Assembly: GCF_030682845.1 (NCBI RefSeq)
Contig: NZ_JAUXNK010000079.1
Span: forward strand, 1-45,147
Length of the DNA: 45,147 nt
Direction of reading: 5' to 3'
Origin: Methanolobus sp.
Lineage (GTDB): Archaea > Halobacteriota > Methanosarcinia > Methanosarcinales > Methanosarcinaceae
The position numbers and the translations under genes are program-made. This document shows, piece after piece, positions 7,478 through 19,721 of this stretch (within the stretch, counting starts at the first letter, position 1; each line of letters begins with the position of its first letter). Under the pieces are notes generated by a model. The model did not search any database, had not been told where the DNA came from, and saw only the letters and a program-made list of their open reading frames with translations.

Positions 7478-8239
7478 TCACATCATCATAAACTGCATCG
7501 TAATATAGAATATCAGGTCGCCGAACACTACCGCAGTGATAAATCCGGCTGTGATGGGTATCATGAACGGGAGACCGGGAGTGACCCAGACGCTGTCCTC
7601 CATCCTGCCTGCCCTGACATGACCCTTAAGCTGGGCAACGACGTTTGAGGTAAGTTCGGTTCCGGCTCTTGTGAAGCTGAACTTTACACCCTCTTCTGTT
7701 TCCTCATAGGATTCGATCATGCGGATATGATCTTTACCAAGTCCGGATACAGATGTCCTGTAACCGATGAACATGTAGAAAGGTCTGCGCAGTGACTCCT
7801 TCAAGGGATTGTGCAGGAGATTGTAAATGAAAAGCCCGATTGGTACAACTATTGTGAGTATAATAGAGTTACCAAAGACACTGAAGGCGAAAATATCAAA
7901 GATAGGAGTTCCCTGGAGAGGCAGGCTGGTGTTGAATACCATAATAGCCGGGAAGGTTGGGACTATTAACGATATGACCATGAGCGCCTTGGCATCGGCG
8001 CCACCAAATGCCCCGAACTGGAAAAGGATGTAAACGAAAAGGTAAACGAACGCGAAGGTCAGCAGGTTCCTGATAAGGTAAGGCATTCCAAGGGTCATGA
8101 AGTCGTACAGGATGAAAACGTAACAGACACCAAACATCGCCACCCATACTTCATTCACAACCCTGCGGCTTTTTATGTCAGAATAGCAGGCATACAATAA
8201 GAAAGGCATGCAGGCAAGCACTTTAAGTAATTCCATCAT
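7478..8239 (-). CDS. Archaeal A24-family prepilin/preflagellin peptidase
   Basis: Membrane aspartic protease of the GXGD type that removes the class III signal peptide from archaeal pilins or archaellins. The 253-residue protein shows the first catalytic aspartate in 'YSDIKSRRV' (D21) and the second in 'FGAFGGADAK' (D82), separated by two hydrophobic helices. A soluble insertion with 'GHVRAGRMEDSVWVTPGLPF' precedes a final membrane segment. The first ATG (8237-8239) has GGAG nine bases upstream; a second ATG follows at once. No pilin or archaellin gene is nearby, so FlaK-like versus EppA-like substrate choice is open. It is transcribed toward recQ (convergent). Confidence 0.88.
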   Translation of the reverse strand: MMELLKVLACMPFLLYACYSDIKSRRVVNEVWVAMFGVCYVFILYDFMTLGMPYLIRNLLTFAFVYLFVYILFQFGAFGGADAKALMVISLIVPTFPAIMVFNTSLPLQGTPIFDIFAFSVFGNSIILTIVVPIGLFIYNLLHNPLKESLRRPFYMFIGYRTSVSGLGKDHIRMIESYEETEEGVKFSFTRAGTELTSNVVAQLKGHVRAGRMEDSVWVTPGLPFMIPITAGFITAVVFGDLIFYITMQFMMM

Positions 8240-8257
8240 TTCCGTTATCTCCGTTTT

Positions 8258-9538
8258 TCAATGTTTTTCCCATTTTTTGAGTTTCATGACCTCAGAGAGG
8301 GTCGCTCCTCTCCTTATCTCCTCGGACAGGCGCTGTTCTGTCTTCTCGACTTCCTTTGCACGCCTTGCAATCTCATAGGCGCGCTCCCTCGGGATCACTA
8401 CTACACCGTTATCGTCTCCCACAATGTAGTCGCCAGGTCTTACGGTCTGGTTGCCGCACACGATCTCGGAGTTGATCTCACCAAAACCCTTGGGCTCCCC
8501 GGCGTTGGGAACATGACATGTGGCAAACACAGGAAGGTCCATTGACCGGATGTCCTCTATATCCCTGACGGCACCATCGACAACGACACCTGCTATTTCC
8601 TTGTTCAGGCAGCTCTGGGTCGCAAGGCCGCCCCATGGAGCCACATGACTGCTTCCGTTATAGATCACGATCACATCATTTTTCCCTGCCACATCAATGG
8701 CCTCAACAGGCTTTGCCCAGTCACCCCTGAAAGTCTGTACTGTAACAGCAGTGCCGACCATTTTCCTGCCGGGCACCTGAGAGAATATGTTCTGCATAGC
8801 TCCCTTGCGGTGCATGGCATCGGAAATGTTAGGAGTGGAAACCGACAGGAAGATATCCCGTATCTCGTTATCGCGGCTTTTTCCCGAATGGAATACCGCA
8901 GAAGGCGCATCCACACTGCTCCTTATGAACCTGGCGGAGGCTGTCACGTCAGATGAACGGACTATGTTGCCCCCCACTATCACTATCTGAGCACCGGCTG
9001 TAACGGCCTGTGCACATGAAACCGAGTCCAGGCCGCCTGCAACAGCAACAGGTATGTCCACTTCCTTTATGACTTCCTTCATGATAGTGAGAGAATCGCG
9101 GCCAGTCATTTGCTGATCGATGCCGGCATGCACGTTTATGTAGTCAACACCCATGTACTCAAGTTCCTTTGAACGTGATACCGGTTCGGGTGAAGATATG
9201 AGATCAGCCATGACCCGGGCACCATATTTCTTTGCAGCCCTGACAGCTTCAAGTACTGTGGAGTCATCAGCGCTTCCGAGGATGACTATTATATCCGCAC
9301 CAGCCTTTGCTGCCATCTCTACTTCCATGGCTCCGGTGTCGGCTATCTTCATATCTGCCACCAGGGTTCTGCCGGGGAACGCTGCTTTGAGCCTCCGTAT
9401 GGAATCCATTCCCTCGCTTTTGATAAGCGGAGTGCCTGCCTCTATCCAGTCCGCACCTCCCTCCAGAGCTTCTGCAGCAATCTGGATAGCGCGGTCTGTT
9501 TCCAGAATATCCAGGGCAACCTGGATTATGGGTCTTAT
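8258..9538 (-). CDS. Hexulose-6-phosphate synthase / RraA-like fusion with apparent ATA start
   Basis: A two-domain protein. Residues about 1-210 are 3-hexulose-6-phosphate synthase ('[12 protein letters not shown]', '[14 protein letters not shown]', '[11 protein letters not shown]', 'AVAGGLDS'), joining or releasing formaldehyde and ribulose 5-phosphate. Residues about 225-426 are an RraA/aldolase-fold domain ('[15 protein letters not shown]', '[20 protein letters not shown]', 'AVRD', '[15 protein letters not shown]'). The first in-frame ATG is at 9407-9409, inside the HPS barrel, and would delete its first beta strand and active-site glutamate region. Reading upstream the frame stays HPS-like for 43 codons, with no ATG, GTG or TTG before an in-frame TAA. 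The best start is ATA at 9536-9538, just after AGGTGATC. A TATA box at 9583-9590 fits. Such fusions are known in Methanosarcinales; the role of the RraA half is unknown. Confidence 0.85.
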
Positions 9539-9539
9539 A

Positions 9540-9590
9540 TGATCACCTTCATTTATTTCTGTACTACTAAATACTTTAGAGCGTATAAAT
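9540..9590 (-). promoter_or_regulatory. Promoter and RBS of the HPS/RraA gene
   Basis: On the minus strand, ATTTATAC (9583-9590) is a TATA box predicting a transcript start near 9558-9561. AGGTGATC (around 9541-9548) is a near-ideal Shine-Dalgarno a few bases before the proposed ATA codon. Together they limit the start codon to the region upstream of the first ATG. Confidence 0.55.
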
Positions 9591-9697
9591 CTAATCTCAA
9601 TAAAACATGGATAAGATTAAAAAAAGGTCTGATGAGAATGTCCGCAAAGGGAATCCTATCAGTAAACATTTATCTCATGTAATTCCTTTATTGTCCG

Positions 9698-13736: not shown

Positions 13737-14825
13737 ATGAACAAGTCACCGCACAGCAGGATAACGATGCATGTGGACATGGACAGTTTTTATTCTTCCG
13801 TTGAGGTAAGGGAGCAGCCTGAACTTAAGGGTTTGCCTGTGGTCGTAGGCTCCGACCCAAAAGGAGGGAAGGGAAGAGGAGTTGTCAGCACCTGCTCATA
13901 TGAAGCCCGAAAATTCGGGATCCATTCAGCAATGCCCATATCCAGAGCCTACAGGCTCTGCCCTGAGGCCATCTACCTGCCTGTAAATATGAGTCTTTAC
14001 AAGGAAACATCGGACAACATAATGGAAGTGCTGCGGATATTTGCAGACAGGTTCCAGCAGGTCAGCGTTGATGAGGCCTACCTGGATGTAGGGGACAGTA
14101 TAGAGGATTATCTGTCAGCTACCCTGCTTGCGCGAAAGATCAAGCGGGAGGTGCTCTCTAAGCAGGGCCTGACCTGTTCTATTGGGGTCGCACCCAATAA
14201 GGTCATTGCCAAAATAGCTTCCGATATCAACAAGCCCGACGGACTGACGGTTGTAAGACCTGAGGAAACAGAAAGTTTCCTCCATCCCCTTTGCGTGTCC
14301 AGGATACCCGGGATTGGAAAAAAGACACAACCAATGTTGGAGGATATAGGCATAAACACAATCGGAAAGCTCGCGATGGCCGATGTGCAGTTCCTCATAT
14401 CACGTTTTGGGAAATATGGCCTTGTAATGCACCAGCTTGCAAACGGTATTGACATCAGGCAAGTGAAAGAGAAGGAAGAAGTAAAATCCATCAGCACGGA
14501 GGATACATTCGACGAGGATATTTCCGACCCGGAACTAATAACTGGAGTATTCTGTGAACTTACAGGAAAAGTGCATGCCGAACTTACAAAAAAGAAGTTT
14601 CGCTTCAGGACAGTTAGCATAAGGGTCCGCTTTGATGATTTCAGGACCTATACCAGAGCCAAGACCCTGCATGCAGCAACGACCGATAAGATGTCAATAA
14701 TAAAAATAGCTGTAGAGCTGATGGAGGAATTTATGGGACGTGGAAGGTTCAGGTTGCTTGGGGTAGGGGTCAGCAAACTGGAAAGAATAGATGAGATGCA
14801 GACATTCCTGAGCGATTTTTGCTGA
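13737..14825 (+). CDS. dinB: DNA polymerase IV (Y family)
   Basis: Error-prone translesion polymerase, 362 residues. The catalytic carboxylates are in 'MHVDMDSFYSSVEVRE' and 'SVDEAYLDV'; also 'YEARKFGIHSAMP', 'IGVAPNKVIAKIASDINKPDG' and the helix-hairpin-helix 'IPGIGKKTQPMLEDIGI'. The last residues 'MQTFLSDFC' look like a PCNA-interacting peptide (Q355, L358, F361). Start uncertain: the TATA box TTATATAAA (about 13718-13726) predicts transcription from about 13747, after the first ATG. The ATG at 13767 (the methionine of 'MHVDMDS'), with GCAGG upstream, may be the true start, giving 352 residues. I keep the longer form. Confidence 0.92.
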   Translation: MNKSPHSRITMHVDMDSFYSSVEVREQPELKGLPVVVGSDPKGGKGRGVVSTCSYEARKFGIHSAMPISRAYRLCPEAIYLPVNMSLYKETSDNIMEVLRIFADRFQQVSVDEAYLDVGDSIEDYLSATLLARKIKREVLSKQGLTCSIGVAPNKVIAKIASDINKPDGLTVVRPEETESFLHPLCVSRIPGIGKKTQPMLEDIGINTIGKLAMADVQFLISRFGKYGLVMHQLANGIDIRQVKEKEEVKSISTEDTFDEDISDPELITGVFCELTGKVHAELTKKKFRFRTVSIRVRFDDFRTYTRAKTLHAATTDKMSIIKIAVELMEEFMGRGRFRLLGVGVSKLERIDEMQTFLSDFC

Positions 14826-15015
14826 CGCGGGGCAACTGCGGATTTAAAGAATAAAAAGGCAGCCATATTTAATCATATTTAAAATATATAGGAAATATAA
14901 AATATACAGCACCATCAAAAGGTCTTGTGCGGACATAGATTTTTATTCTTAAGACATCTATTTTCAGCTTAAATGTATCAATAGATACAGCCCATAATTC
15001 AGAGGGAAATACCTG

Positions 15016-16932
15016 ATGAAAAATAAAGCCAAAAACTATCAGAACAAATGCAAAAGCAGACCAAGGACACTCGGGCCTGTCTCACGTCTTGAAGAACATG
15101 TGAATCCGGAATGGTGGAAAAAGATATTCAATTCCCTTTACCTGAAAACAGATGCAGATATAGTGGATGATGCCTCCATCACCAGGCAGGAAATAGACAC
15201 TTTTCACAACATCCTTAAACTAACGCCTGAGAGTCACGTGCTTGACCTGTGCTGCGGGCAGGGAAGGCATACACTGGAACTTGCAAGAAGAGGGGTCAAA
15301 AATGTGGAAGGGCTGGACAGATCCCACTATCTTATCCAGAGGGCAAAGACATCTGCAAAAAAAGAGGGACTGAGTGTTAAGTTCAGGGAAGGCGACGCCA
15401 GGAAAACCCCCTATGTAACGGATAATTTCGATGCGGTCATGCTTCTGGGAAACAGTTTTGGTTATTTTGAGACAGCTGAAGAAGACCTGAGAGTATTAAA
15501 AGAAGTCAAACGAATACTCAAGCCCTGGGGTAAGATCCTGCTTGATGTGGCAGATGGTTCTTACCTTAAGGAGAATTACCAGCCAAGGTCCTGGGAATGG
15601 ATCGATAAGCACAATTTTGTGTGCAGGGAGCGGTCCATATCCATCGACGGTCAGAAGCTGATATCAAGAGAGGTTATCGTCAACGAAACCTCGGGCGTTG
15701 TTGCAGATCAGTTCTACGCAGAGCGACTTTATACTAACGAAGGCCTCATTGAACTTTTGAAGGAGGCAGAATTCACAGATATAGAGATAGTGGACTCCAT
15801 TAAGTCCGAGACCCTCCGCAACCAGGACCTGGGAATGATGGAAAGGCGCATATTCGTAACTGCATCTATCAAGAAGGAATGGACACCTAAGAAAAAGAAG
15901 ATAAAAGATGTTGAAAAGAACGTAGTGGTCGTTTTCGGGGACCCGAAGAAGAGAGATGAACTAAAACCCTGTGGCGTCTTTGATGATGACGACCTGTATA
16001 CCATTGAACAGCTGAAAGGCAGTATCCAGCCAGCCGAAGGTTACTCTTTCAAATACCTGAACAACCACGATACGCTCATCCCTGACCTTGCAAAACTCAA
16101 AGGCAAGGTAGATTTCGTATTCAACCTGTGTGACGAGGGTTACAGCAACGATCCCAGAAGGGAACTGCATGTGCCCGCACTGCTGGAGATGCTGGGCATC
16201 CCCTACACCGGCTCAGGGCCACAATGTCTTGCATTCTGTTATGATAAGGCACTTGTCAGGGGAATTGCAAAGGACCTGGGAGTGCCGGTGCCTGAAGGTA
16301 TAATCGTAAAAGCGGAAGACAGCATGTTCGAGCTGCCATTGGGCTTTCCGGTTATTGTAAAACCCAACTTTGGAGATTCGAGTTTCGGACTTAACCAGCG
16401 CAGCGTGTGTAACAGCTATGATGAAGTTGTCAGGGCCATCTACGACATAAGAGAGGGTCTGGGATACGACAAACCGATACTCATTGAAGAATTCCTTACA
16501 GGAAAGGACCTGAGCATAGGGATCATCGGCAACCCTCCTGAGAACTACACAGTCCTCCCTATCATTCAGGAGGACTACTCCGAGCTTCCGGAGGAACTGC
16601 CAAAGGTGTGCGGATATGAGGCAAAGTGGATACCGGAATCGCCATACTGGAAAATAAAATCTGTTTCTTCAGACCTGCCACGGGACATAGAAGAAAAGAT
16701 AATAGAGTGCAGTCTGAAGCTCATCAACCGTCTTGAATGCAGGGATTACACCCGCCTTGACTGGAGACTTGATGCCGCAGGCAACCCTAAGCTTCTGGAA
16801 GTGAACCCAAATCCCGGCTGGTGCTGGGACGGCCACCTAGCAAAAATGGCAAAACTTGCCGGCATGTCATACGAGGAGATGTTGGGGCATATACTCAAGA
16901 GCGCGGATGAAAGGATTTCTGCACAGAAATGA
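15016..16932 (+). CDS. SAM methyltransferase / D-Ala-D-Ala-ligase-like ATP-grasp fusion
   Basis: A 638-residue two-domain enzyme. Residues about 30-290 are a class I SAM-dependent methyltransferase: motif I 'VLDLCCGQG' (75-83), 'VEGLDRSHYLIQRA', 'FDAVMLLGNSFGYFE' and 'ILLDVADGSYLKENY'. After a lysine-rich linker ('PKKKKIKDVEKN'), residues about 305-638 are an ATP-grasp ligase like D-alanine-D-alanine ligase: 'FNLCDEGYSNDPRRE', 'IPYTGSGPQCLAFCYDK', 'PVIVKPNFGDSSFGL', 'ILIEEFLTGKD' and the metal/ATP motif 'LLEVNPNPGWCWDGHL'. Methanogens of this group lack peptidoglycan, so a cell-wall role is improbable. The substrate is unknown; ligation and methylation of one amino-acid-like compound is an inference. 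The ATG is weakly supported by GAGGG ten bases upstream. The glycosyltransferase that follows is 278 bases away with its own promoter. Confidence 0.85.
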   Translation: MKNKAKNYQNKCKSRPRTLGPVSRLEEHVNPEWWKKIFNSLYLKTDADIVDDASITRQEIDTFHNILKLTPESHVLDLCCGQGRHTLELARRGVKNVEGLDRSHYLIQRAKTSAKKEGLSVKFREGDARKTPYVTDNFDAVMLLGNSFGYFETAEEDLRVLKEVKRILKPWGKILLDVADGSYLKENYQPRSWEWIDKHNFVCRERSISIDGQKLISREVIVNETSGVVADQFYAERLYTNEGLIELLKEAEFTDIEIVDSIKSETLRNQDLGMMERRIFVTASIKKEWTPKKKKIKDVEKNVVVVFGDPKKRDELKPCGVFDDDDLYTIEQLKGSIQPAEGYSFKYLNNHDTLIPDLAKLKGKVDFVFNLCDEGYSNDPRRELHVPALLEMLGIPYTGSGPQCLAFCYDKALVRGIAKDLGVPVPEGIIVKAEDSMFELPLGFPVIVKPNFGDSSFGLNQRSVCNSYDEVVRAIYDIREGLGYDKPILIEEFLTGKDLSIGIIGNPPENYTVLPIIQEDYSELPEELPKVCGYEAKWIPESPYWKIKSVSSDLPRDIEEKIIECSLKLINRLECRDYTRLDWRLDAAGNPKLLEVNPNPGWCWDGHLAKMAKLAGMSYEEMLGHILKSADERISAQK

Positions 16933-16969
16933 ACCTTTGAATACATTGATATTCGAGATTCACAGGGAG

Positions 16970-16989
16970 GAGTAAGTTCTTACTTACTC
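16970..16989. terminator. Hairpin after the methyltransferase/ATP-grasp gene
   Basis: GAGTAAGT (16970-16977) and ACTTACTC (16982-16989) pair perfectly around TCTT, and flanking GGAG/TCTCC can extend the stem imperfectly. It lies 38 bases after the stop. There is no strong T-run, so it may be a terminator or a processing/stability element. Confidence 0.45.
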
Positions 16990-17210
16990 TCTCCGATTTA
17001 CTTGCTTCCAGATGGATTCTGAATTGTATTTTAGTACATGCTATTCCTCATGATTATTAGTTCTTCCGAGATGAATCAAAGTCTACTGCCGGAATTAAGT
17101 TAAATGTAGTATTTTTAGAAGGGTTTATTTAAGTAGGATTCCGGCAAAAAGTTAACCTGAAAGATGTCGGCATATATGTATAATCAGTACAAGCAGAGAT
17201 AGGGAAGAAC

Positions 17211-18410
17211 ATGGAAGTAAATCGTGGTATAGGGGAACAGCTGGAAGGCATTGGCGAGATAGATGTTGTTGTGGGAATCCTTACAAAGAATGTAGAACCC
17301 ACTATATTGCATGTAATGAATGTTGTAAGAGAGGGAATATTGCAATACCTTTCTCCCTACAATACACTGGTTGTCGTCTCAGATGGCTTTTCAACTGACA
17401 GGACAGCGGAACTTGCAGGCCTGTTCGAACTGTCCCCGGTGAAAAAGATAGTTGTCGAGCAGATGGGAGTCCCTGGTAAGGGAGATGGGATACGCACGGT
17501 AATGGAAATTGCGCACAAGCTCAATTCCAAAGCTATTGCTTTTGTTGACGGGGACTTACTATCGGTCAAGGGAGAATGGATACAGGAGATGGTCCGGCCC
17601 GTACTTTATGGCAGAACGGACCTTGTTGTTCCTTTCTATGTGCGCGACAAGTTTGACGGGGTTATCACGAACAACCTTGCATATCCCTTCACAAGAGCTT
17701 ACTATGGTACCGATATCCGGCAACCCATTGGAGGAGAATTCTGCATATCCAGCAAACTAATGGAAATATTACGCACCCATCCTCTTTTTCCTTCGGACTT
17801 TGGAATAGACATATTCATTACTACCGTAGCATCCGCAGAGAAACGCAGGATAAGGGAGGCCATGCTTGGGTTAAAACTCCATGAATCCACTACAAAGTAT
17901 GTAGATCCCGAATCTTCCCTGATACCAATGTTCAGGCAGGTGGTCAAAACAATGTTTGACCTTGCCGTTTACTATGATGGAAAGAATCACAGGTCTGTGC
18001 CAACGGAAATTGCAGGGGTGTCTGAATACTATGGGCCTGTGCCTGTGCCTGTGGCTGTCAACAGGGAGAAAATGCTTGAGACAGTATCCAAAAGATACGG
18101 AGAATATTCCGATATTTACGAGAAACTGCTGCCAAAGGATATCCTGAATCATCTGGGAGCTTTCCTTGAGGGAGAACAATACCTTGATGCTGAGAGGTGG
18201 TCACGCATTGTATGGCTTATCTACAATGAATATTCAACAACATATGATGTCCGCCTGGTGGATGCACTGAGAGTTATGTGGCTCACAAGGTTCATTGGGT
18301 TCTATAACGAGTGCAAGGACCTCAACTTCTCTGAAGCTGAAGCCAGGATAAGAGAGAACGCCATAATATTCGAAGAGATAAAGAGCGAAGTAGCCGGAGA
18401 GGCAGCCTGA
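17211..18410 (+). CDS. Hexosylglycerate-synthase-like glycosyltransferase (GT-A fold)
   Basis: A 399-residue cytoplasmic glycosyltransferase. It shows a nucleotide-sugar site 'VVVSDGFSTDRT', 'PGKGDG' (88-93), the metal-binding 'VDGD' (112-115), 'RQPIGGEFCIS' (170-180) and 'SDFGIDIFITTVA' (195-207). These blocks and the length most resemble mannosylglycerate synthase (GT78) and, less, glucosyl-3-phosphoglycerate synthase (GT81). Both families make hexosylglycerate compatible solutes, a plausible product for a salt-tolerant methanogen. No phosphoglycerate-sugar phosphatase is in the window, which suits a one-step synthase. TATA-like TTTATTTAAG near 17125; AGGGAAG precedes the ATG. Exact donor and acceptor cannot be read from sequence. 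Confidence 0.75.
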   Translation: MEVNRGIGEQLEGIGEIDVVVGILTKNVEPTILHVMNVVREGILQYLSPYNTLVVVSDGFSTDRTAELAGLFELSPVKKIVVEQMGVPGKGDGIRTVMEIAHKLNSKAIAFVDGDLLSVKGEWIQEMVRPVLYGRTDLVVPFYVRDKFDGVITNNLAYPFTRAYYGTDIRQPIGGEFCISSKLMEILRTHPLFPSDFGIDIFITTVASAEKRRIREAMLGLKLHESTTKYVDPESSLIPMFRQVVKTMFDLAVYYDGKNHRSVPTEIAGVSEYYGPVPVPVAVNREKMLETVSKRYGEYSDIYEKLLPKDILNHLGAFLEGEQYLDAERWSRIVWLIYNEYSTTYDVRLVDALRVMWLTRFIGFYNECKDLNFSEAEARIRENAIIFEEIKSEVAGEAA

Positions 18411-18441
18411 TCAACGGCTTCAGCTGTATTGTGAAAAGGAC

Positions 18442-18743
18442 CTACTTTTCCATTGCCTTTTTTCTCATATCTTCCGGGAACTTCTCGATTGCATACCTCA
18501 AAGATGTTCTTGGCATGACCGTCTTATTTTTCATCACATATTCAAAAATTTCCTGCTGGTGCGCTTTATCTGCCCGTAGTGTTTATCTGCGACCCTGAGG
18601 ACAATTGCAGCCTTTACACCATAACAGTTTATCCCTTCCTTAAAAAAACGTGCATTTGAAGCTTTTGTCTTTTCATCTGCGCTTTGGGCCAGTTCCGCCC
18701 TTATACTCGATATGAGATCTTCATGCATTTGCTCGCCAGCCAT
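18442..18743 (-). pseudogene. Decayed DNA alkylation repair (AlkD-like) gene
   Basis: The first part (from ATG 18741-18743) encodes an AlkD-like N-terminus: 'LISSIRAELAQSADEKTKAS', 'NARFFKEGINCYGVKAAIV', ending 'KHYGQIKRTSRKF' and a stop. In a different frame, the bases immediately after encode an AlkD-like C-terminus: 'HQQEIFEYVMKNKTVMP', 'RTSLRYAIEKFPEDMRKKAM', ending at a TAG (18442-18444). Family members are about 220-235 residues; here the two ends abut with roughly 120 residues of the HEAT-repeat core missing and a frame change at the junction near 18560. It is therefore an internally deleted pseudogene, not a short gene. It lies between the glycosyltransferase and pirin genes, with no clear Shine-Dalgarno. 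Confidence 0.75.
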
Positions 18744-18821
18744 GGTTTCTTTTGTAAAGATATGAGAAAGATGACACAAATGGTTAATACGGCTTACGGA
18801 CGATATCCATAGGGGGAAACA

Positions 18822-19721
18822 ATGGGTAATACTAGCGATATAAGCAATACCAGTAATGTCAGACAGATACTGAAGAGCGTGCCAATCACCGAAGGAGCCG
18901 GAGTGCATCTGAAAAGGGCGTTCACTTCAAGCAGAGGCCCGGACCTGGACCCGTTCCTTATGCTTGACGATTTCCACTCGGACAATCCGAGTGATTACAG
19001 GATGGGGTTCCCGTGGCATCCCCATCGTGGCATGGAAACGATAACCTATATGATTTCGGGGATTGTGGAGCACAGGGACAGCCTCGGGAACAAAGGCACG
19101 ATAGGCCCCGGCGACATACAGTGGATGACTGCGGGCAGCGGCATAATACACCAGGAAATGCCAAAGGGAAATGAGAAGGGAGAACTACGGGGGCTGCAAC
19201 TGTGGACCAACCTTCCTGCAGCACATAAGATGATGCCTCCCCGATACAGAGAAATTAAAAGCGAGCAGATACCCTCGGTGCACACAATGAACGGCACCGT
19301 GGTCAAAGTGATATGCGGAAATGTCGATGGGATGCACGGCCCTGTTAAGGATATCATGACTGAGATAGAATATCTGGACGTGAATATCCCTGCCGATGCT
19401 TCCTTCAGGCACCCCACGCAGCCGGAAAATACTGTTCTGGCATACGTCCTGGAAGGAGAGGGTTATTTCGATCCGGAAAGCATCTCATTTGCAGGGAGTG
19501 AGAGCCTTGTCATATTTAAGAGCGATTACTGGATAGAAGTAAAAGCAGCAGACAAAGGCGTAAGGTTCCTGTTGCTTTCCGGCAAACCACTGAATGAACC
19601 TGTGGCATGGCGCGGGCCGGTAGTAATGAACACGCAGGAAGAATTAAAGCAGGCTTTTGAAGATTACAAAGAGAATAGGTTCGTAAAGGGGGAAGCCCAT
19701 TTTACAGAAAGCTCACAATAA
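18822..19721 (+). CDS. Pirin family protein
   Basis: A bicupin of 299 residues, the usual pirin length. The N-terminal cupin has the metal-binding block 'GFPWHPHRGMETITYMISG', with further histidine in 'GIIHQEMP'; also 'TIGPGDIQWMTAGSG' and 'LQLWTNLPAAHKM'. The C-terminal cupin ('HPTQPENTVLAYVLEGEG') completes the fold. Prokaryotic pirins include quercetinase-like dioxygenases and redox-sensing partners, but the archaeal role is unknown. The ATG is preceded by AGGGGGAAACA. It is monocistronic and convergent, nearly abutting the DUF1624 gene. Confidence 0.93.
   Translation: MGNTSDISNTSNVRQILKSVPITEGAGVHLKRAFTSSRGPDLDPFLMLDDFHSDNPSDYRMGFPWHPHRGMETITYMISGIVEHRDSLGNKGTIGPGDIQWMTAGSGIIHQEMPKGNEKGELRGLQLWTNLPAAHKMMPPRYREIKSEQIPSVHTMNGTVVKVICGNVDGMHGPVKDIMTEIEYLDVNIPADASFRHPTQPENTVLAYVLEGEGYFDPESISFAGSESLVIFKSDYWIEVKAADKGVRFLLLSGKPLNEPVAWRGPVVMNTQEELKQAFEDYKENRFVKGEAHFTESSQ

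Follow-up and report, generated by a model that had tools for sequence, protein, structure and literature searches.

A gene on the forward strand of a 45,147-nucleotide stretch of Methanolobus sp. DNA (contig NZ_JAUXNK010000079.1 of assembly GCF_030682845.1; this whole stretch is referred to as the window) encodes a protein in which an S-adenosylmethionine (SAM)-dependent methyltransferase is joined to an ATP-grasp ligase with the fold of D-alanine–D-alanine ligases (Ddl). In our best reading, held with moderate confidence, this fusion is a bifunctional N-methyltransferase/amide ligase that would make an N-methylated, amide-linked small metabolite. An earlier prediction, made from the sequence alone, had suggested a methylated peptide-like metabolite in a host without peptidoglycan, and had linked the fusion to the glycosyltransferase gene following it on the same strand in one osmolyte or cofactor pathway. 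For the first point, a methylated, amide-linked metabolite still appears to be the best reading, while the proposed functional link was contradicted by the co-occurrence data of both genes.

Domain structure and conservation of the fusion protein

One uninterrupted open reading frame (ORF) in the ORF listing of the window encodes both domains, exactly where the original prediction had placed a methyltransferase/Ddl-like ligase fusion. Both domains were found by Pfam: Methyltransf_25 covers residues 75–172 (E 2e-20) and Dala_Dala_lig_C (PF07478) residues 439–627 (E 2e-25; 90.2 bits, gathering score 24). The AlphaFold model of the whole fusion has a mean predicted local distance difference test (pLDDT) score of 86, with a flexible or uncertain linker near residues 286–298. 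The gene and its features are as follows.

15016–16932, + strand: bifunctional fusion of a SAM methyltransferase and a Ddl-fold ATP-grasp ligase, 638 aa (ORF, Pfam, NCBIfam, 52-sequence alignment, AlphaFold model)
15073–15867, + strand: methyltransferase domain, about residues 20–284, class I Rossmann fold with beta cap (Pfam, model of the domain alone, structural matches)
15448–15468, + strand: GNSFGYF motif, residues 145–151, SAM site, invariant in 52 of 52 sequences (alignment)
15589–15600, + strand: SWEW motif, residues 192–195, cap region, invariant (alignment)
15868–15909, + strand: interdomain linker (pLDDT about 50 at residues 290–299, poor conservation)
15910–16929, + strand: ligase domain, residues 299–638, complete three-subdomain Ddl fold (VIA-align Z 26–30)
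15979–15993, + strand: acidic patch F-D-D-[DE]-D, residues 322–326, where the first ligase helix begins (alignment, model)
16804–16836, + strand: acceptor-site loop NPNPGWCWDGH, residues 597–607, in place of the D-Ala-binding loop of Ddl, invariant (alignment)

Full-length co-linear homologues were present in about 50 of 112 Methanosarcinaceae genomes. Because such homologues occur in other genomes of the family and on dozens of contigs from other phyla, the fusion is genuine and no sequencing or frame accident. Beyond the family, such homologues were detected in the phylum of a Jordarchaeia-type archaeon (roughly 45 of 227 genomes) and in sampled genomes of Planctomycetota (8 of 343) and of the Desulfobacterota type (8 of 297), the last group also yielding one stand-alone methyltransferase. 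Named contigs carrying the fusion were from Methanophagales, Altiarchaeota, Lokiarchaeota, Jordarchaeia, Atribacteria, Aminicenantes, Zixibacteria, Stahlbacteria, Cloacimonadota, Thermotogota, Chloroflexota, Spirochaetes, Caldithrix and Desulfonema. The hosts are mostly anaerobes and comprise Asgard and anaerobic methanotrophic (ANME) archaea as well as many mostly uncultured bacterial phyla; no relative was found in the viral contigs searched.

Full-length identity to the window protein was mostly 63–70% outside the Methanosarcinaceae, and 55–59% for the Methanosarcina-type, G007 and G349 copies. About 105 alignment columns were invariant over the 52 sequences, including the motifs GNSFGYF, SWEW, FDD[DE]D, YEAKW and NPNPGWCWDGH; the last of these is partially relaxed in divergent homologues only. 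With few exceptions, the homologues found keep the two domains joined and in a conserved register. In a quick tree of 92 rows with weak deep branches, the Methanolobus, Methanomethylovorans-type and G033 copies formed one clade with a support of 100, and the Methanosarcina-type copies (G074, G079, G083) and the copy of G007 were placed elsewhere. The simplest reading of this tree would be that the fusion was acquired at least twice within the family, with additional transfer between domains of life. A copy on a contig labelled Nitrosotalea (L036) was nearly identical to a Methanophagales copy (L032), and the public record probably contains a binning error here.

Two Asgard-phylum genomes with the fusion additionally encode stand-alone ligases that are 50–52% identical to its ligase domain. 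In genome G228, a stand-alone methyltransferase shares 51% identity with the methyltransferase domain of the fusion; the best ligase match there, located elsewhere, is only 30% identical and most likely an ordinary Ddl. Split versions were therefore rejected as proof of domain coupling.

The methyltransferase domain

With motif I, an acidic motif II and a Rossmann fold, the N-terminal domain is a class I SAM-dependent methyltransferase; SAM motif I (DLCCGQG) and the acidic residues D101 and D127 are kept in the homologues of the 52-sequence alignment. Modelled alone, the domain reached a pLDDT of 89 and a predicted template modelling score (pTM) of 0.88. The top structural matches of this model were mostly amine N-methyltransferases with Z 21–25, namely TylM1, DesVI, KedS8, CalS10, CypM, CcbJ, NmbA and GSMT, whose caps are of the type seen in the fusion. 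The natural-product enzymes TylM1, DesVI, CypM and KedS8 and the glycine/sarcosine methyltransferase have nitrogen as methyl acceptor in common, but differ from the fusion in being unfused, in sharing only 14–23% identity and in using other substrates.

By sequence, the nearest PDB chain was 9ri2 (E 4e-24), the N-methyl-bacillithiol synthase NmbA, which is the closest solved relative of the methyltransferase domain and ranked 20th (tied) among the structural matches (Z 23.1, 28% identity). NmbA methylates the cysteine nitrogen of bacillithiol, and Y134 and F135 of its SSFGYF motif have been assigned a role in stabilising the adenine (PMC12719100). The fusion shares the capped fold class and the SFGYF motif (GNSFGYF in the fusion, SSFGYF in NmbA); NmbA, however, is only about 28% identical to the methyltransferase domain, has no ligase domain and requires bacillithiol, whereas 18 of 22 fusion genomes lack BshC.

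The ligase domain

The C-terminal domain matched D-Ala-D-Ala and D-Ala-D-Lac ligases over 280–309 residues (VIA-align Z up to 29.9 over 309 residues), and the ATP-grasp catalytic set K449, E491, K537, R580, D582, E595 and N597 shows no or almost no variation among 52 archaeal and bacterial homologues. It thus shares with the DdlB/VanA family (ATP-grasp, COG1181) a common fold over about 290–309 residues as well as the ATP/Mg catalytic residues, but differs in several respects. Identity to this family is 20–28%, the fusion carries the methyltransferase, and its scores lie below all curated cut-offs, being about half of those of the Ddl models in NCBIfam (TIGR01205, 123.5 vs. 245.65 bits; PRK01372, 132.1 vs. 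243 bits). In DdlB, Ser281 and Tyr216 contact D-Ala, and the loop N-x-x-P-G-M-T-x-x-S holds the second D-Ala. In alignments to DdlB numbering, the equivalents of Ser281 and Tyr216 were Gly606 and Trp538, both invariant, and the acceptor loop is altered. Also, the EhEVS-type motif for the first substrate is missing, with the acidic FDDDD patch present instead. D323, D325 and D326 of this patch are invariant in the 52 homologues, a helix spans residues 324–337 in the model, and by analogy the patch may lie roughly where Ddl enzymes hold the amine of the first substrate. With its ATP and Mg residues kept, the domain acts in a Ddl-type manner, but the low curated Ddl scores and the replaced acceptor-site residues show that it is not a D-Ala-D-Ala ligase.

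Genomic context of the fusion

The fusion gene was solitary in most of about 72 neighborhoods, and clustering of 721 neighboring ORFs together with inspection of 20 further loci by eye yielded no general partner, so that a conserved operon was rejected. The sole recurrent partner was an AstE/AspA-type amidohydrolase gene, which directly follows the fusion in three Desulfobacterota (at 3 bp, overlapping, or at 69 bp) and precedes it in a TA06 bacterium. The closest NCBIfam model of this neighbor, matched below its cut-off, is DoeB, an amide-cleaving enzyme of ectoine degradation; an adjoining gene of this type would suit a fusion product with an amide bond. As a universal partner the hydrolase was rejected, since a close relative (at least 55% identity) was found in just 6 of 29 fusion genomes.

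Proposed function

Taken together, the intact catalytic cores, the matches to amine N-methyltransferases, the lasting domain fusion and the amidohydrolase neighbors support the N-methyl/amide reading. From these we infer nitrogen as the methyl acceptor, an amide as the bond formed, a coupling of the two reactions and the kind of product. The N-terminal domain would use SAM to methylate a small substrate, most likely on an amine nitrogen. The C-terminal domain would use ATP and Mg2+ to convert a carboxylate to an acyl phosphate, and attack of an amine on this intermediate would give the amide. The product would be a small N-methylated, pseudo-dipeptide-like metabolite, neither D-Ala-D-Ala nor hexosylglycerate.

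Several points weigh against this proposal. C- and O-methyltransferases were also among the fold matches of the methyltransferase domain, the solitary position of the gene in most genomes makes its context uninformative, and the amidohydrolase neighbor was present in just 4 of about 72 neighborhoods. The stand-alone methyltransferase of G228, located behind two SET-domain genes in a genome that lacks a dedicated ligase, would also suit a protein substrate. Our literature search found no paper on the fusion and no substrate, product or mutant on record. Because of its strict conservation, its solitary gene and its scattered and transferred distribution, a stand-alone biosynthetic enzyme with a portable cofactor- or metabolite-type function fits better than bulk osmolyte production.

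Alternative functions

Two alternatives are unlikely to about the same degree. In the first, the fusion is a low-molecular-weight thiol synthase, whose ligase adds cysteine or a cysteinyl group to the product and whose NmbA-like domain methylates the amine of this group, resulting in an N-methylated thiol analogous to N-methyl-bacillithiol. The relationship to NmbA, the mostly anaerobic hosts and the invariant cysteines C80, C408 and C603 would agree with this. NmbA was not the top structural match, however, so that the resemblance is one to the wider amine-methyltransferase family. The bacillithiol or N-methyl-bacillithiol pathway itself was rejected, as BshC was found in just 4 of 22 fusion genomes, and neither the Methanolobus genome nor the Methanosarcina genome among these has it.

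In the second, both domains modify a side chain or terminus of a protein or peptide, as in RimK-like tailing combined with methylation. This would be in line with the peptide N-terminal methyltransferases CypM and YunM among the fold matches and with the locus in G228, where two SET-domain genes lie directly 5′ of the stand-alone methyltransferase gene on the same strand with short gaps (L134, G228:C26:43000-61000, positions 7939–9642). No conserved gene for a substrate protein was present in the about 72 neighborhoods, though, and as far as is known, the characterised Ddl-fold ligases use small molecules as substrates.

Slightly less probable again is that the fusion alone makes a bulk peptide-type osmolyte and that the AstE/AspA-type enzyme is the recycling hydrolase. 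Known peptide osmolyte systems carry a hydrolase, and the similarity of the adjoining hydrolase to DoeB would fit such a role, but only the 6 of 29 fusion genomes mentioned above have a close relative of it. The fusion is absent from both genomes of genus g12 (including G073) and from most genomes of genus g10, two genera which we take to be halophilic, but it occurs in lineages from groundwater, hot springs and freshwater, a distribution that makes a bulk osmolyte the less likely product.

A pathway shared by the fusion and the glycosyltransferase, leading to a methylated or glycosylated osmolyte, is very improbable. The two genes adjoin on a common strand in five close Methanolobus genomes. 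In addition, a 32%-identical glycosyltransferase divergently adjoins the fusion on one Aerophobetes contig (L072). This sole independent co-location is one case among about 72 neighborhoods, for which we roughly estimate a several-percent chance of accident, and it is outweighed by the co-occurrence and remnant data. The co-occurrence survey suggested along with the original prediction showed no positive association in Methanolobus, and a lack of co-occurrence is what the prediction itself had named as counting against it: among 27 genomes, seven had both genes, eight only the fusion, eight only the glycosyltransferase and four neither (Fisher p 0.44, odds ratio 0.44; descriptive, since the genomes are related). 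In one of the seven (G056), the fusion ORF lacks the first 94 residues, and leaving this genome out keeps the conclusion. In the Methanosarcina-type genus g13, the fusion was found in about 25 genomes and the glycosyltransferase in none; conversely, both glycosyltransferase-positive genomes of g12 are without the fusion. The fusion also occurs in many Methanosarcinaceae genera beyond the two with the glycosyltransferase.

Moreover, each gene was lost while the other was kept. G050 has an intact fusion with a 52-residue remnant of the glycosyltransferase beside it, and in G046 a broken glycosyltransferase is located elsewhere in the genome. G052 and G049 each have an intact glycosyltransferase but just remnants of the fusion, and in the corresponding dinB-pirin locus of G041, G048 and G064 the glycosyltransferase is present and the fusion missing. 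Finally, the glycosyltransferase clusters with other genes, namely GpgS/MpgP in six genomes and a DUF4147/MOFRL gene in G073.

A reading of the fusion as a plain D-Ala-D-Ala or D-Ala-D-Lac ligase to which another domain was joined by accident can practically be dismissed, since the fold and ATP site it has in common with Ddl and Van ligases stand against the low family scores, the replacement of the D-Ala-binding residues, the invariant NPNPGWCWDGH loop and an archaeal host without peptidoglycan. For the same reason, that a Ddl-fold fusion sits in an archaeon, a role in peptidoglycan synthesis is unlikely.

The neighboring glycosyltransferase

The intergenic gap between the fusion and the glycosyltransferase gene in the window is 278 bp. 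The following features were assigned to this region.

16966–16994, + strand: intergenic hairpin that may mark the end of the fusion transcript (dG -17.4 kcal/mol, z -3.2 vs. shuffles)
17124–17132, + strand: AT-rich box (TTTATTTAA) conserved in aligned intergenic regions of five Methanolobus genomes, a candidate TATA box of the glycosyltransferase gene
17211–18410, + strand: MGS/GpgS-like glycosyltransferase, 399 aa (MGS_GT over cut-off, PDB 2bo4 E 2e-5, co-occurrence and clustering with GpgS)

A T run was looked for 3′ of the hairpin and none was found. The two genes are about 1.4 kb apart in G044, the closest relative, where another gene lies between them. Because of this separation, the 278-bp gap with its strong hairpin and the conserved TTTATTTAA block, it is plausible that the fusion and the glycosyltransferase are transcribed separately, as the original prediction had assumed in giving them separate promoters.

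The stretch between dinB and pirin (window positions 13737–19721 and the syntenic loci L143–L145, L149, L153, L184 and L185) is a spot of gene turnover in Methanolobus, where the fusion, the glycosyltransferase and a gene inserted in G044 with a PEF-CTERM-like tail come and go and leave remnants. The glycosyltransferase is best read as a neighbor by chromosomal history and not as a functional partner of the fusion.

For the glycosyltransferase itself, the predicted hexosylglycerate-like type was borne out by the match to MGS_GT (PF21969; E 2e-10, 41.2 bits, gathering score 27), besides Glycos_transf_2, and by its relation to mannosylglycerate synthase (GT78, 2bo4) and glucosyl-3-phosphoglycerate synthase (GpgS). 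It is a paralogue distinct from GpgS, scoring below the GpgS cut-off (NF010496, 54.6 vs. 262 bits); the methanogen GpgS model NF040724, an equivalog against which a relative's GpgS scores 716 bits (cut-off 700), was not among its matches. The glycosyltransferase was present in just 2 of 14 Methanosarcinaceae genera. Among the genomes tested, GpgS was found in 12 of 12 with and in 0 of 8 without the glycosyltransferase (p 8e-6). In the six Methanolobus genomes G039, G049, G054, G055, G062 and G063, it clusters with the genes for GpgS and a GH15-like protein; an MPGP-type phosphatase was present in five of these six clusters and a glycogen-phosphorylase-type gene, within the stretch read, likewise in five. 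In G073, it lies 16 bp from the DUF4147/MOFRL (glycerate-kinase-type) gene, and in the genome of the window (G000), GpgS and MpgP are encoded on another contig (C61).

The conserved Methanolobus cluster (L146 3004–10143, L150, L180–L183) has the order MpgP, a 176-aa protein of no assigned kind, GH15-like protein, GpgS, phosphorylase-type gene and glycosyltransferase, and is probably a complete set for synthesis and turnover of glucosylglycerate-type solutes. The glycosyltransferase is best read as a putative additional hexosyltransferase in the pathway of the solute glucosylglycerate. In Methanococcoides burtonii, glucosylglycerate has been reported as an osmolyte (PMC11009771).

Further loci with Ddl-like ligases and other neighbors

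In an Asgard-phylum genome (L165, G860:C195, 2383–4570 and 6657–8342), a lysine 2,3-aminomutase gene lies about 46 bp from a gene for a Ddl-like ligase (32% identical to the fusion ligase), and a gamma-glutamyltranspeptidase is encoded close by; this set possibly constitutes a beta-lysine amide pathway. Two further genomes of this phylum, G853 and G854, have a Ddl-like ligase in tandem with a fusion of a Ddl-like ligase and a GNAT acetyltransferase (L158 6747–9456, L159 7232–9966). At L088 (8892–18797) and also at L142 (2107–6759), an ATP-grasp Ddl-like protein occurs together with a gamma-glutamyltranspeptidase and an N-formylglutamate amidohydrolase; the long C-terminal region of this protein has no Pfam match and is peptidase-like by eye. 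The L088 cluster, which additionally contains a GNAT-nitrilase and an amino acid permease, is located right behind the fusion and its AstE/AspA-type neighbor. In the second lineage of the fusion, that of the Methanosarcina-type genomes and G007 (L137, L139, L148), a URO-D family gene (PF01208) is found in its vicinity; at L137, a fragment of a CitMHS-type transporter lies between the two.

Implications

The identity of 55–70% across two domains of life and the about 105 invariant residues make the fusion a strong candidate enzyme of a metabolite pathway yet to be discovered in anaerobes, reaching lineages that are not amenable to growth. Tentatively, and with clearly less confidence than for the enzymatic function, we suggest that by means of one horizontally spread gene Asgard archaea, ANME archaea, Methanosarcinaceae and many anaerobic bacterial phyla might make the same undescribed N-methylated, amide-linked small molecule, such as a cofactor, a thiol or a redox-active pseudo-dipeptide, with both steps performed by one protein. 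Since the orthologue in G074 belongs to a presumed genetically tractable archaeon, the function can be tested now. A tempting but wrong link of the fusion to compatible solutes is removed, and the glycosyltransferase gains a better-supported place in the glucosylglycerate pathway.

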